In this document: piece by piece, positions 45,398 to 62,808 of the stretch
Numbering within the stretch: position 1 is the stretch's first letter
Layout of the letters: every line of letters begins with the position of its first letter
Source of the DNA: Saprospiraceae bacterium
GTDB lineage: Bacteria > Bacteroidota > Bacteroidia > Chitinophagales > Saprospiraceae
Assembly: GCA_021604865.1 (NCBI GenBank)
Contig: BQJU01000013.1
Span: forward strand, 1-64,000
Direction of reading: 5' to 3'
Length of the DNA: 64,000 bases
The notes under the pieces: model-generated
Seen by the model: only the letters and a program-made list of their open reading frames with translations
The model's database searches: none
What the model was told of the DNA's origin: nothing
Made by a program: the position numbers and the translations under genes

Positions 45398-48004
45398 TTA
45401 TTCTTCCTCCCCTCCTTTGTCTCCTGCATCCTCAATTACTGCGTCTTCAATTGTTGCCGATTCATCCTCTTCAGAATGTGGTACAACCGCTAAATCTGCA
45501 ATTTCATCTTCGTCATTCAGGCGAATAACTTTAACGCCTTGCGTTGCTCTGCCCATGACTCTGATTTCATCAATTGGCATACGAATTACAATTCCGAAGC
45601 GACTAGTAATCATCAAGTCATCTTCTTGCCTTACAGCCTTGATAGCAAACAAGGCGCCTGTTTTATTGGTCACCTGCATAGTACGCACACCCTTACCTCC
45701 ACGGTTAGTCAATCGGTAATCATCAAACTGGGAACGTTTACCCAGGCCTTTTTCCGAAATCACCAAAATCGTAACCTCTTTATCTTCCGAATCGATACAA
45801 ACCATGCCAACGACCAGGTCTCCTTTTTTCTTGATAGAAATCCCCCGGACTCCAGCAGCAGTACGGCCCATAGACCGGACTTTACTTTCGTTGAAACGAA
45901 TGGCATTACCACTACGGGAAGCGATAAATATTTCATTTTTCCCGTTGGTCAGTTTGGCTTCCAGCAATTGATCATTTTCATTGACATTGATGGCGATAAT
46001 ACCACCGACCCGTGGGCGGGAAAAGGCTTGTACCGGGGTCTTTTTGATAATGCCCTGCCGTGTACAGAACATAATAAAGTGATTCTCAAGGAATTCACTA
46101 TCCGTCAGGTCTTTTATGTTGATGTAAGCCCTTACTTTGTCATCCTTCGGAATCGACAATATGTTTTGGATAACCCGGCCGCTGGAAGTTTTATTCGCCT
46201 CCGGTATTTCATACACCCGCAACCAATAACATTTCCCTTGCTCGGTAAAGAGCAACAGATAATTATGATTAGTAGCGATAAAGAGATGTTCTATAAAATC
46301 TTCATCTCTGGTCTTGGAGCCTAAAGAGCCCCGGCCTCCCCTACTTTGGGTGCGATATTCCGAAACAGGTGTGCGCTTGATATACCCAAGGTGGGATATG
46401 GTCACTACTACTTCTTCATCTTCAATCAGGTCTTCAATGGAAATATCCCCATCGGAGTAATTGATCTCAGTCCTGCGGGCGTCACCGTATTTCTCTTTGA
46501 TTTCAAGGAGCTCTTCCTTAACAATTTCCCGTTGAAGTTCTTCACTGGCCAGGATGGCACGATAATGGTTGATCCGTTCCTGAATCTCATCGTATTCCTT
46601 ACGAATACTGTCCCGTTCCAGTCCGGTCAGTTTTTGCAACCGCATATCCAGGATAGCCTTGGCTTGTTCCTCTGATAATACGTTGTCTTCCAATACCTGA
46701 TAATCGTCTGTTTGTCCAAATTTGATCAGGTCCCGGAATTTTGTCCAAAAAGCATCTTTATCATCAATAAAATCGCCACGCATCAAAGCTTTTCTGGCTT
46801 CTTCAGGATTGGCTGAGGCACGTATCAAACTAATGACCTGATCAAGATAATCCAATGCGATGAGTAAACCGATCAGGATGTGCGCCCGGCTTAAGGCTTT
46901 GCGCAAATCAAATTTGGTCCGTCTAACGATTACCTCCAAGCGGAATTTCACAAATTCCTCAATCATATCTTTCAGATTGAGAATGCGAGGCCGCCCATTG
47001 ACCAGTGCTACGTTATTGACACCAAAGGAAGATTGTAAAGGCGTATATTTATACAGCTTGCTGAGCACCACACTGGCCATAGCATCGCGCTTGACCTCCA
47101 CAACTATCCGCAGACCATTACGATCTGATTCGTCACGCAAATCACTGATGCCTTCGACTTTCTTCTCATTCACCAGATCAGCAATCTTGGCAACCAGGGA
47201 AGCTTTATTAACCTGATAGGGAATTTCCGAAATAATGATCGTTTCCCGGCTTCCATTATCGATGATATCGGCCTTACCGCGCAAGACGACCTTTCCTCTT
47301 CCCGTTTCAAATGCATCCTGAACCCCCTGATATCCAAAAATGATACCGCCGGTAGGAAAATCCGGGGCAGTGATGAATTCCATCAGTTCCGGAATCGTAA
47401 TTTCAGGATTGTCAACGGTTGCTACAATACCATTTATCACTTCAGTGAGGTTGTGGGGCAACATATTGGTCGCCATACCCACAGCAATACCCGATGCGCC
47501 ATTGATAAGCAGATTGGGCAATCGGGCAGGCAAAACGGTAGGTTCTTCCAGCGAATCATCAAAGTTGAGTGCAAAGTCGACCGTATCTTTGTTGATATCC
47601 GCCAACATTTCATCACTAATGCGTTGCAACCTAGCTTCGGTATAACGCATGGCCGCCGGGCTATCGCCGTCCATTGATCCGAAGTTTCCCTGGCCGTCTA
47701 CCAGTGGATATCGCAAAGACCAATCCTGGGCCATCCGCACCATGGTATCATATACTGAAGAATCACCATGAGGGTGATATTTACCCAGTACTTCACCAAC
47801 AATACGAGCCGATTTCTTATGCGACTTTCCATAAGTCAGTCCCAAACCTGACATTCCATACAAAACCCTACGGTGAACCGGCTTTAAACCGTCTCTCACA
47901 TCAGGTAATGCACGTGAAACAATCACCGACATTGAATAATCAATGTAGGCTGATTTCATCTGATCCTCAATATTAATGGGAATAATTCTTTGACTCGGAG
48001 CCAT
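45398..48004 (-). CDS. gyrA: DNA gyrase subunit A
   Basis: The 868-residue protein has the winged-helix/tower core with catalytic Tyr121 in [10 protein letters not shown] and the C-terminal six-bladed DNA-wrapping domain (about 510-820). The GyrA-box appears as QSRGGRG, which separates it from ParC. In the quinolone-determining region, [11 protein letters not shown] has Ser82 and Asp86 at the E. coli Ser83/Asp87 positions, the quinolone-sensitive residues. The acidic tail ([24 protein letters not shown]) is typical. gyrB is not in the window. It introduces negative supercoils in DNA. Confidence 0.98.
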
Positions 48005-48049
48005 TCACTCAATTTAACTTAGGAAATAATTATTTTCAATCGAAAATGG

Positions 48050-48191
48050 TTCTTTGACAAATCTCGTGATTTTGAGTCAATCAAAAATGTAAATCAACGC
48101 TTCCTTGCACCTCCGCTTTAGCCAACTATGGCGCACGCGGATGGTCTCTTATGCTTCACATTTTAGCTTGACCACGAGATTTGTCAAAGAA
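48050..48191. repeat. Long inverted repeat between gyrA and menG, MITE-like or structured RNA
   Basis: A 19-bp perfect inverted repeat (left arm 48050-48068, TTCTTTGACAAATCTCGTG; right arm 48173-48191) frames 104 bp. The arms continue inward imperfectly: the 20 bases near 48076-48095 match the reverse complement of the 20 bases before the right arm at about 16 of 20. The centre holds CCTCCGCTTTAGCC and GGCGCACGCGG, also partly self-complementary. It lies in the 423-bp gap between the divergent gyrA and menG; the remaining right half (48192-48405) shows nothing clear but the menG promoter. No coding frame runs through it. Confidence 0.75.
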
Positions 48192-48405
48192 GAGAAAAAA
48201 AGCGTTTTTCAAAGACACGCAAAGTTAAGAAAATTTGGCCTAATTTTTCAGTACAAAAAATAATTACTTGCCTTGTTTTGCTGAACTTAAATAGGTTCTC
48301 ATTGTTGAAAAAATCCAAAGTTGAATTTGACGAGAAATATTGCTCTTAAAAGTACCCTATCGACAGAAATATTCCGTCAATTCCAGGATTTCATTTTTGA
48401 CCCTC

Positions 48406-48413
48406 TATATTTG
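48406..48413 (+). promoter_or_regulatory. -7 promoter element of menG-porT
   Basis: TATATTTG matches TAnnTTTG, 14 bp before the ATG at 48428, so the leader is very short. Confidence 0.6.
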
Positions 48414-48427
48414 CAAAAATTTTTAAA

Positions 48428-49156
48428 ATGGCAAAAGCGGTAAAACCCTATAATGAAGGTGAAAGTAAAAAAGTACAGGTGTCCAGGATGTTTAACAAGA
48501 TTGCACCTTACTACGATTTTCTCAATCGGCTTTTGTCATTAGGCATCGATACTATTTGGCGAAAAAAAGCCATTGACCAGTTGAAAGGTAAAAACAACCG
48601 CCTGATACTGGATGTGGCCACCGGCACGGCTGATGTAGCTATTGAGACGGCCAAGAGGCTAAAACCTGAAAAGATTATCGGTTTAGATATATCTAGCCAG
48701 ATGCTTGAAGTGGGGCGAAAAAAAATAAAAAAACAAGCCCTGGAAACCGTCATTGAGCTCCTTGAAGGGGATTCGGAAAATTTACCTTTTGCAGACAATA
48801 CCTTTGATGCAATTACCGTTGCATTTGGGGTGAGAAATTTTGAAAACCTGGAAAAAGGACTCAGCGAAATGCAGCGCGTACTTAAAGAAGATGGTCAACT
48901 GGTGGTGTTAGAGTTCTCAAAACCGACGCTCTTCCCATTCAAACAATTATTTAATTTTTACTTTCGGTACATTTTACCGCTGATTGGACGTTTAAGTTCT
49001 AAAGATCCGAAAGCCTACCGATATCTATACGAATCGGTACAGTCATTTCCCAATGGGAACGACTTTTTGAACATATTACGTAAAACCGGTTACAAATCGA
49101 ACAAATGCATACCGTTAACACTGGGAATTTGCTCTATCTATGTGGGCGTAAAATAA
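48428..49156 (+). CDS. menG: Demethylmenaquinone methyltransferase (UbiE/MenG)
   Basis: The 242-residue protein has the UbiE signatures: YDFLNRLLSLGIDTIWRKKAI near 29-49, SAM motif I LDVATGTADVAIE near 60-72, and the later DAITVAFGVRNFENLEKGL and LEFSKPTLFPFKQLFNFYF. It methylates demethylmenaquinone to menaquinone; ubiquinone would not be expected in this phylum. Its last 52 bp overlap the start of porT in another frame, a strong sign of translational coupling. The first gene of a two-gene operon. Confidence 0.95.
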   Translation: MAKAVKPYNEGESKKVQVSRMFNKIAPYYDFLNRLLSLGIDTIWRKKAIDQLKGKNNRLILDVATGTADVAIETAKRLKPEKIIGLDISSQMLEVGRKKIKKQALETVIELLEGDSENLPFADNTFDAITVAFGVRNFENLEKGLSEMQRVLKEDGQLVVLEFSKPTLFPFKQLFNFYFRYILPLIGRLSSKDPKAYRYLYESVQSFPNGNDFLNILRKTGYKSNKCIPLTLGICSIYVGVK

Positions 49157-60234: not shown

Positions 60235-62808
60235 TCAACTTTTCATAAACTGACCTCTATAAATTTTACGATCTACTTTCAATTTAAAATAGTAAATCCC
60301 TTTTGCCAGGGTTGAGATATCTACTCTTTTTTCGGTGGTCTCCCCTATCCTACCCTGCCAGTTGTTCAACAATTGGCCAGAGGTATTAAGCAAGGCCAGT
60401 TCATAGGTGCCTCGGACACTTTTTTCAGGTAGCTGAATGTTAACAAAACCTGTAGCTGGTGACGGAAAAACCGTTAATTCCTGATGGGCAATAGAAGGAT
60501 ATTGGGTATTTAGAATGGTCGTATCCGGGACTACAATAATAGAATCCAGGTTATAAGACTGAATGGAGCGAGCGTGGGTACCGGCAACCAGCTCGTTGCG
60601 AACAGGATTGTATTCCAGATCGTAGACAGGTACAAAAGGCAGGTTATTGCCAAGACGTTGCCAGGTTTGCCCAGCAGTCATGCTACCATAAACCCCACCA
60701 TCAGAAGCGACAAAGAGGGCTGTATCCTGGTTATTGGGTAGAATATAAACGTCATTCAATGCCAGGTCAGGTAGGTCACCGTCAATGGATTCCCAATTGA
60801 CACCACGATCCGTTGATCGGAAGATATGTGGACTGGAATCATTGTCTTTATAGCCTGATACGGTGACGTATACCCAATCTTCATGGTATGGAGAAGCCTT
60901 AATATCTGTTACATAACGATCAGTGATACCGGCCGTGACATTTGTCCAATTGAAATCATCGACATTATCCACCCGCCAGACATTGCCGTCGCTAGTGCCA
61001 ACATAAACCAGGCCAGGAACCAGGGGAGATTCGTGCAAGGTGGTGATGGTATGATACCGAGCTGCATCTCCTGGGCCATCAGTCAGGTCATCAGATACAG
61101 GTTCCCAGAGGGGAAAGACTCCGGCAGTACTTCGATAAAGGCGGTAAGTACCGGTGTACATGACATCCGGGTTATGCGGGCTCATAACCAGTGGCGTATC
61201 CCAATTAGTACGGTCATCTGAATCCATGCCCGTATTAGCTGATGACCAATTTTGCCAGCTTCCATCTGTACTTACCACAAAATTTCCATTCTGCGTTTCG
61301 GCATAAGTAACATCTGCATTGGTGGGGTGAAACAATAATTGAAACCCATCACCACCATAAATACGCAGCCAATCATCCTGCTCAGAAGTGCCTCCGGAGC
61401 TACCATTATCCTGTGCCCCTCCAAAATACCAATCGGGGAGATGTGGGTTATAAGCCACCCGATAAAACTGAGTCGTGGGAATATTTTCGATATCCGTCCA
61501 GGTAATACCGAGATTCTCACTTTTGTAAAGGCCTCCGTCTGTACCCAAATAAATATTGTTATGGGCAAAAACCAGGTCGTGTTTGTCGGCATGAACCTCG
61601 TACGACCACCATGATGGGGTCGCCAAATTCCAAGTTTGGCCGCCATCAATAGTGCGCCACAAATCAACCCCTAAAACAAACAAATCATCATCTGATTCGG
61701 GGTTTACCCGGAGTTGTCCAAAATACCAGCCAAAGCCTCCCAGAATATTATCAGGAAGATTGGTAGTATCCCAGTCAATCAGGGGCGTCCAGTTGAGTCC
61801 TGCATCTATGGATTTATAGATATTGTGCAATTCTTGGTCATTTCCAGTATAACTGGCAAACAATACATCAGGATTGCTGCCAGACATAGCCAAACCTATA
61901 CGGCCAATAGATTCCTGCGGCAATCCTCCCTCTAATAATGTCCATGTAGCGCCACCATCTATAGATTTGTGGATTTTAGCGTCAGGTCCGTTGGTTACCG
62001 ATTCCATATTGTTTCGAATACGGTTCCAGCCGGCGGCATAAAGAACGCTAGGATTCTCTGGATTAATCAGCAGATCTGTAATGCCTGCTTCCTCACTTAG
62101 GTATAAAATATGTGTCCAGGTTTGTCCGCCATCGGTAGACTTATACAATCCTCGGTCATCATTCCTTTTGAATGGCAATCCCATGCAAGACACATAAATA
62201 ATATTGGAATCTGTTGGATCAACCACAATTTTAGAGACGATGCGCTGATCTGTCAATCCCAGATGTGTCCAGGTTTGTCCGCCATCAGTACTTTTGTATA
62301 CCCCATCACCAATTTGCACATAACCGCCAATATTCGGGTCACCGGTTCCTACATAAACCGTTTCAGGGTCATTGGGGTCTAACGTTATAACTCCAATGGC
62401 CAGGAAAAGATTATTGTCAAAAATTGGTGTCCAATTGCTGCCACCATCGATGGTTTTAAAAACCCCACCTGTTGAAAATCCGGTATAAATAATATTCGGA
62501 TTGGTTGGATGCACGGCAATCGTATTGACCCGGGCCCCAATATTGGCCGGCCCACGGCCGATCCATTCCAAATCAAAGCCTGGAAATTCGTCCTTAAGCA
62601 ATGATTCTAATTTGGCATTTTCTAATGCCTGAGTATATGCTTTGAGATTGATGGTCCCATCCGGATAAGCTCTTTGCAAAAAAAAGTGATCATTGGGTGC
62701 ATGCATGTCCGTTAAACGATCACTGCTTTTTTCGTTTCGTTTATCTTCACAAGATAAAAAAACACACAGGAAATTGAAGGCAAGGAGGCTAAGTAGAAAC
62801 TTATTCAT
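60235..62808 (-). CDS. Secreted BNR/sortilin-type beta-propeller protein with a type IX sorting domain
   Basis: The 857-residue protein has a signal sequence ending in LSC at residue 20. Residues 50-760 contain many BNR/sialidase or VPS10-like propeller repeats (VFKTIDGGSNWTPIF, YKSTDGGQTWTHLGL, IYYSTDGGxTW types with SxDGGxxW motifs). The last 80 residues (about 777-857: LTVFPSPATGFVNIQLPE, YELALLNTSGQLL, VDISTLAKGIYYFKLKV, RGQFMKS) form a type A T9SS C-terminal sorting domain. It should be exported by the Sec and then the type IX system to the cell surface. No catalytic Asp-box sialidase triad is obvious, so it is probably a binding or structural protein. The presence of porT in the window fits. 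Confidence 0.93.
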   Translation of the reverse strand: MNKFLLSLLAFNFLCVFLSCEDKRNEKSSDRLTDMHAPNDHFFLQRAYPDGTINLKAYTQALENAKLESLLKDEFPGFDLEWIGRGPANIGARVNTIAVHPTNPNIIYTGFSTGGVFKTIDGGSNWTPIFDNNLFLAIGVITLDPNDPETVYVGTGDPNIGGYVQIGDGVYKSTDGGQTWTHLGLTDQRIVSKIVVDPTDSNIIYVSCMGLPFKRNDDRGLYKSTDGGQTWTHILYLSEEAGITDLLINPENPSVLYAAGWNRIRNNMESVTNGPDAKIHKSIDGGATWTLLEGGLPQESIGRIGLAMSGSNPDVLFASYTGNDQELHNIYKSIDAGLNWTPLIDWDTTNLPDNILGGFGWYFGQLRVNPESDDDLFVLGVDLWRTIDGGQTWNLATPSWWSYEVHADKHDLVFAHNNIYLGTDGGLYKSENLGITWTDIENIPTTQFYRVAYNPHLPDWYFGGAQDNGSSGGTSEQDDWLRIYGGDGFQLLFHPTNADVTYAETQNGNFVVSTDGSWQNWSSANTGMDSDDRTNWDTPLVMSPHNPDVMYTGTYRLYRSTAGVFPLWEPVSDDLTDGPGDAARYHTITTLHESPLVPGLVYVGTSDGNVWRVDNVDDFNWTNVTAGITDRYVTDIKASPYHEDWVYVTVSGYKDNDSSPHIFRSTDRGVNWESIDGDLPDLALNDVYILPNNQDTALFVASDGGVYGSMTAGQTWQRLGNNLPFVPVYDLEYNPVRNELVAGTHARSIQSYNLDSIIVVPDTTILNTQYPSIAHQELTVFPSPATGFVNIQLPEKSVRGTYELALLNTSGQLLNNWQGRIGETTEKRVDISTLAKGIYYFKLKVDRKIYRGQFMKS

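Follow-up and report, generated by a model that had tools for sequence, protein, structure and literature searches.

The long inverted repeat between the divergent genes gyrA and menG is very probably an old copy of a non-autonomous mobile element (MITE) mobilised in trans by a DDE transposase of the ISL3 family, a reading that we draw from sequence comparison. The stretch analysed (hereafter the window) comprises the first 64,000 nucleotides of contig BQJU01000013.1, and the genome to which it belongs (G000) comprises 7.97 Mb in 161 contigs. A preliminary description made from the window alone had suggested a MITE, a REP-like element or a structured RNA; the MITE suggestion holds and can be made specific, as an ISL3-derived, multicopy family with 8-bp target-site duplications. 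What was an unexplained palindrome can thus be given a name as a copy of a mobile element. Judging from what the assembly contains, this copy can no longer move.

Anatomy of the repeat between gyrA and menG

The two terminal inverted repeats, each of 19 nt, occupy positions 48050-48068 (left) and 48173-48191 (right) of the plus strand, are 100% complementary to one another and stand 104 nt apart, exactly as first described; as then noted, the arms extend inward imperfectly and enclose a GC-rich, self-complementary centre. The repeat lies in a gap that measures 423 bp (48005-48427), again as reported, between gyrA, encoding DNA gyrase subunit A (45398-48004, minus strand; TIGR01063, 1159.7 bits), and the menG/ubiE methyltransferase gene (48428-49156, plus strand; PF01209, E 4.9e-69). 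The view that the repeat is too structured for chance is borne out by its copies at other loci (see below) and by 300 dinucleotide shuffles of the gap, in which the longest exact inverted repeat averaged 9.3 nt and never exceeded 15, against the 19 observed. The predicted RNA fold of positions 48045-48195 likewise reaches -54.4 kcal/mol, compared with -30.1 (sd 3.5) in 200 shuffles. One statement of the preliminary description requires correction, namely that the repeat is too far from either gene to resemble a normal terminator, given that the end of the element is only 43 nt upstream of the gyrA start codon.

The whole element is 146 bp long (48048-48193, plus strand in the orientation of our covariance model R1), with the tip GG at 48048-48049 preceding the left arm. 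It matches R1, which was built without the window copy, over model positions 1-111 (103.1 bits, E 4e-18), and no ORF of at least 60 aa overlaps it, in keeping with the absence of a transposase gene that is expected of a MITE. The window copy consists of the 111-bp form common to the family plus an extra palindrome of approximately 35 bp and 63% GC at about 48107-48141, delimited by alignment with the copies on C7 and C17, the exact ends of which are ambiguous by at least one base. Within G000 this insert occurs at three places, solely in the copies on C13, C17 and, in diverged form, C62. The C17 copy is 92% identical to the window copy across 146 bp, and the C7 copy lacks the insert while being otherwise very like C17. 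As the insert is common to C17 and the window copy and missing from C7, the composite of 111-bp form and insert probably moved as a unit once the insert had arisen.

The inner hairpin was also considered as a separate repeat, a candidate that we rejected because all three of its places in G000 fall inside MITE copies. A pattern search for it across 396 genomes of the order returned matches in 35 (G000 included), mostly at a single site, and the reversed control matched too. The palindrome at 48107-48141 additionally resembles a 38-nt stretch of G034, a genome of another taxonomic family (89%; L010:1501-1538). Arm pairing was compared for 22 of 27 loci: the window copy alone pairs at 19/19 positions, five copies pair at 18, and the mean is 16 of 19. 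This pairing shows no correlation with the decay of target-site duplications (rho 0.07).

Copies, target sites and the candidate transposase

A search of G000 with positions 48045-48195 as query gave 46 matches, and 33 stretches covering 34 places were retrieved and inspected. The common form of the element is 111 bp long and begins GGTTCTTTGACAAATC. Twenty copies were aligned, excluding the 171-bp copy on C46 and partial copies, and model R1 was built from the 15 of near 111 bp that remained once those on C13, C17, C128, C62 and C49 were dropped for their inserts or deletions. R1 finds 39 matches in G000. As 12 of these repeat a locus on its other strand, they represent at least 27 loci, among which the 15 copies used for training necessarily match; the figure of 27 is a lower bound because scoring extended to only 150 of the 3691 first-look candidates. 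With 17 of the 27 loci measuring 101-112 bp, the family is short, multicopy and dispersed. ORFs of at least 90 aa cover 88%, and 18 of 21 copies fall outside them. The 16-nt tip (up to 3 mismatches) occurs at 310 sites in G000, as against 65 for the reversed control, and the consensus is now available for annotating such related ends in this genome and its relatives.

Matches to R1 were found in 5 of 40 genomes searched, which belong to five genera of one taxonomic family: besides G000, these are G014 (60 matches), G015 (9), G020 (3) and G001 (2), a few of these matches being both strands of one place. The other 35 gave none, with 95 candidates scored per genome throughout. The whole-genome search for copies proposed in the preliminary description thus returned at least 27 loci, and with matches in 4 of the 39 other genomes the element is not the single, unconserved copy that, by the same account, would have left only a chance repeat. 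Viral contigs, searched with one exact 22-mer, and plasmids and phages, searched by blastn, gave no match.

Target-site duplications are 8 bp long and AT-rich in the family. We compared the 8-bp flanks of 23 of the 27 loci (C54:102, C111, C80 and C10 being left out), and found 146 of 184 bases identical, where permuted pairs give 79.0. Sixteen of the 23 copies have flanks matching at no fewer than 7 of 8 positions, where 1.12 would be expected, and none of 20,000 permutations was as good. Among nine registers tried, agreement peaks at 8 bp (6.35 of 8, the next being 4.09), and seven copies retain a perfect duplication, for example ACTTATTT (C7) and TAGTTTTT (C4). The same signal is seen in relatives, where the flanks of 21 loci (among 74 matches) are identical at 107 of 168 positions, against 71.5, with 7 loci at 7 or more (0.57 expected). 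In the window copy, however, the left 8-mer TCGAAAAT (48040-48047) and the right 8-mer GAAAAAAA (48194-48201) are alike at only 4 of 8 positions, the target duplication of this copy being eroded or lost. Consequently, of the target-site duplications for which a search had been advised, the part concerning the family stands (16 of 23 copies at 7/8 or better) and the part concerning the window copy does not, and the duplication length of 8 nt given for ISL3 elements in PMC11448079 is found in the former and not in the latter.

The sole match in G000 to the ISL3-type transposase domain (PF01610) is a C-terminal fragment of 177 aa on contig C89 (E 2e-28), and a search of the whole genome found no complete ISL3 gene. 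Directly past the stop codon of this fragment lies GGTTCTTAGACAAATCTCGTGG, which points inward, with 23 bp separating its tip from the stop. This terminus is identical at 21 of 21 nt to the C51 copy at its right end; the TTAGAC variant is common to 6 of the 20 aligned copies. The family therefore matches, via the C89 remnant, an ISL3-family element in the same genome, of which one end survives. No second tip was found near the remnant (one tip in 11.5 kb, allowing up to 8 mismatches in 24), and 75 stretches of G000 around tip sites contained no transposase fragment other than that on C89. By eye, the MITE appeared to keep the last codons of the transposase. We dropped this impression, since agreement as good arose in 634 of 5,000 shuffles and in 39 of 546 windows of the genome; as homology between the inner right arm of the MITE and the 3' end of the transposase gene is insignificant, the C89 remnant itself is at most a candidate ancestor of the MITE. 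The parent would be an intact ISL3 element bearing GGTTCTTTGACAAATCTCGTG at its ends.

Across the 396 genomes of the order, 6 (G000 included) contain an ISL3-type protein match. G372, from a different genus than G000, harbours an apparently complete ISL3 element of 1267 bp with a related terminus: it bears GGTTCTTTGACAATTTTTGCAAA at both ends, begins GGTTCTTTGACAA and has 13 nt of the tip in common with the MITE. Its transposase (349 aa) scores 267 bits against an ISL3 model cut-off of 180, with zinc-ribbon and HTH domains scoring just below their cut-offs, and is 38% identical to the C89 remnant; no duplication is visible by eye in the sequence flanking the element. In six relatives searched for PF01610 the domain was present in G022 only. 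Draft assemblies frequently lose repeats, so that a missing parent is weak evidence. A side observation is that G014, a relative of 11.2 Mb, has the most R1 matches of any relative and no detectable ISL3 transposase gene (no PF01610 match).

A tip-to-tip form of 36 bp was additionally found at 8 loci in G000 (up to 3 mismatches), against 0 for the reversed control and 0 in five other genomes at the same threshold. Its flanks are alike at 42 of 64 positions versus 27.9 expected, with 2 of the 8 loci at 7 or more. The loops of these forms are all different, so that in-place loss of the sequence between the arms is as good an account of them as transposition of such a small unit. We also observed perfect 8-bp flank repeats around a 24-bp piece (G000:C6:132462-132485; L161:1463-1486) and a 32-bp piece (G000:C1:198008-198039; L153:1509-1540), both drawn from 62 candidate pairs that include chance and nested pairs; these pieces are either very small transposed forms or products of in-place deletion.

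Probable position in the gyrA leader

Promoter boxes in the gap were called with TAnnTTTG, which we take to be the Bacteroidota -7 consensus. The only such box in the gyrA sense is TAACTTTG (48220-48227, minus strand), the probable gyrA promoter, and the only one in the menG sense is TATATTTG (48406-48413, plus strand), the probable menG promoter, which is clear of the element. The window also encodes a T9SS sorting domain at 60235-62808 (TIGR04183, 25.5 bits, cut-off 23), and both this domain and the TAnnTTTG boxes are presumably typical Bacteroidota traits.

The gyrA box stands 223 nt from the ATG, a distance that falls to 69 when 154 is subtracted (the 146 bp of the element and one 8-bp copy of the target). 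Of 39 relatives 29 entered the comparison, and 23 of these have a TAnnTTTG box no more than 160 nt from gyrA, against 2.9 expected from base shuffles; the distances in these 23 range from 29 to 138 with a median of 67, and are approximate in those genomes (10 of the 29) where the extrapolated start falls off an ATG. In the window the distance surpasses this median by roughly one element length. In G001, the block matching window positions 48200-48235 sits 44 bp past the gyrA match, as opposed to 191 bp here, its leader being shorter and without the element and hairpin, although this leader is so diverged that the exact insertion point is unreadable from it. No R1 match on the gyrA contigs of G001, G014, G015 and G020 was among those listed. 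Given the box beyond the element, the shorter spacing in relatives and the G001 leader, the element is most likely situated inside the transcribed gyrA leader, between promoter box and start codon, with both the box and the transcription start read from sequence. The leader so assumed folds with -65.1 kcal/mol (z -6.0).

In the most probable course of events, an ISL3-family transposase bound the GGTTCTTTGACAAATC ends and carried the element into the gyrA leader via an 8-bp staggered cut. The 5' leader of the gyrA transcript would then contain the element as a strong hairpin, 43 nt ahead of the start codon. Its predicted effect on gyrA expression is probably little. Having most likely come to rest in an essential gene's leader, this MITE is easily mistaken for a riboregulator. 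The insertion may have been co-opted as a working gyrA leader hairpin, but we consider this improbable; if it were true, a long palindrome at gyrA could sense supercoiling (as DNA cruciform and mRNA hairpin) and feed back on gyrA.

A preference of the family for the interval between promoter box and start codon was considered and rejected: a box lies beyond the MITE on 2 of 17 gene-facing sides, against 1.0 expected, so that the placement at gyrA reflects no family rule. On 12 of these 17 sides (21 copies) an ORF, in several cases a long one, starts 9-43 nt downstream of the element; these distances are raw figures, shortened by taking the first start in each case.

Alternative readings and related elements

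Several features of the repeat could also be expected of a structured or regulatory RNA, or of a gyrA leader element under selection. The fold is very stable, 10 of 27 consensus pairs show changes on both sides in at least one copy, and the window copy is alone among 22 in having 19/19 arms even though its target duplication is eroded. Changes on both sides are, however, also explained by two ends that must fit one transposase, and the covariation term of RNAalifold is not favourable (+0.17). Broken Watson-Crick pairs comprise 16 G.T and 16 A.C, an equality which indicates that neither strand is favoured, as for DNA palindromes and unlike a single RNA strand. Moreover, the copies lie upstream of different ORFs, the hairpin is missing from the gyrA leader of G001, and Rfam 15 yields no match at gathering score in the whole window. 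The structured-RNA suggestion of the preliminary description is consequently unsupported, and we regard an RNA function, or selection as a leader element, as quite improbable.

Its REP-like suggestion, taken as a palindrome of REP/REPIN type that a RAYT (IS200/IS605-like) transposase would have spread, accounts for an element that is palindromic, multicopy and mostly extragenic, and could draw on the resemblance of the central hairpin to the 38-nt stretch in G034. Yet at the thresholds used this centre is found in G000 only within MITE copies, and the family combines long terminal repeats at both ends with 8-bp duplications and a terminus of ISL3 type; to our knowledge, REPs leave no target duplication. 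The common copy is also 111 bp long, versus the 20-40 bp given for REPs in the text available to us (PMC3733652). The REP reading thus appears very improbable and finds no support. Mere chance, to which the want of a clear target duplication at the window copy might point, is refuted by the number of copies (no fewer than 27 genomic loci) and sits ill with a shuffle maximum of 15; we give it practically no weight.

We take the ISL3-derived MITE family of G000 to be new and its kind to be already published. Among the titles and opening lines of abstracts of the open-licence literature on ISL3 MITEs and Bacteroidetes MITEs we found no description of this family, and the part of PMC9769881 at hand contains no ISL3 term. 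Going by the accessible sections of each source, the closest parallel is a MITE of 187 nt from the cyanobacterium Microcystis aeruginosa, which was attributed to ISL3 elements having GGCTCTTCG ends and repeats of 8 nt (PMC11448079). It is likewise short, has a stem-loop and 8-nt direct repeats, and its terminal inverted repeats are imperfect and begin with GG.TCTT, but it differs in its tip (GGCTCTTCG) and length, and in that ISL3 elements with matching ends reside in the same genome there (PMC11448079). The MITE related to ISMac21 in Methanosarcina acetivorans is also an ISL3-related miniature element, although of 179 bp; its row of values (179, 6, 22, 7) we read as giving length, copy number, inverted repeat and direct repeat (PMC3852290, as excerpted). 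REP elements, as far as the consulted text of PMC3733652 describes them, share small palindromic repeats in many copies with the G000 family, which differs in its two terminal repeats with target duplications. MITEAba12 of Acinetobacter resembles that family in being a MITE of 111-114 bp with AT-rich target duplications that occurs in more than one genus, whereas its parent is ISAba12 and its duplications are 9 bp long (PMC6382973, in the portion available).
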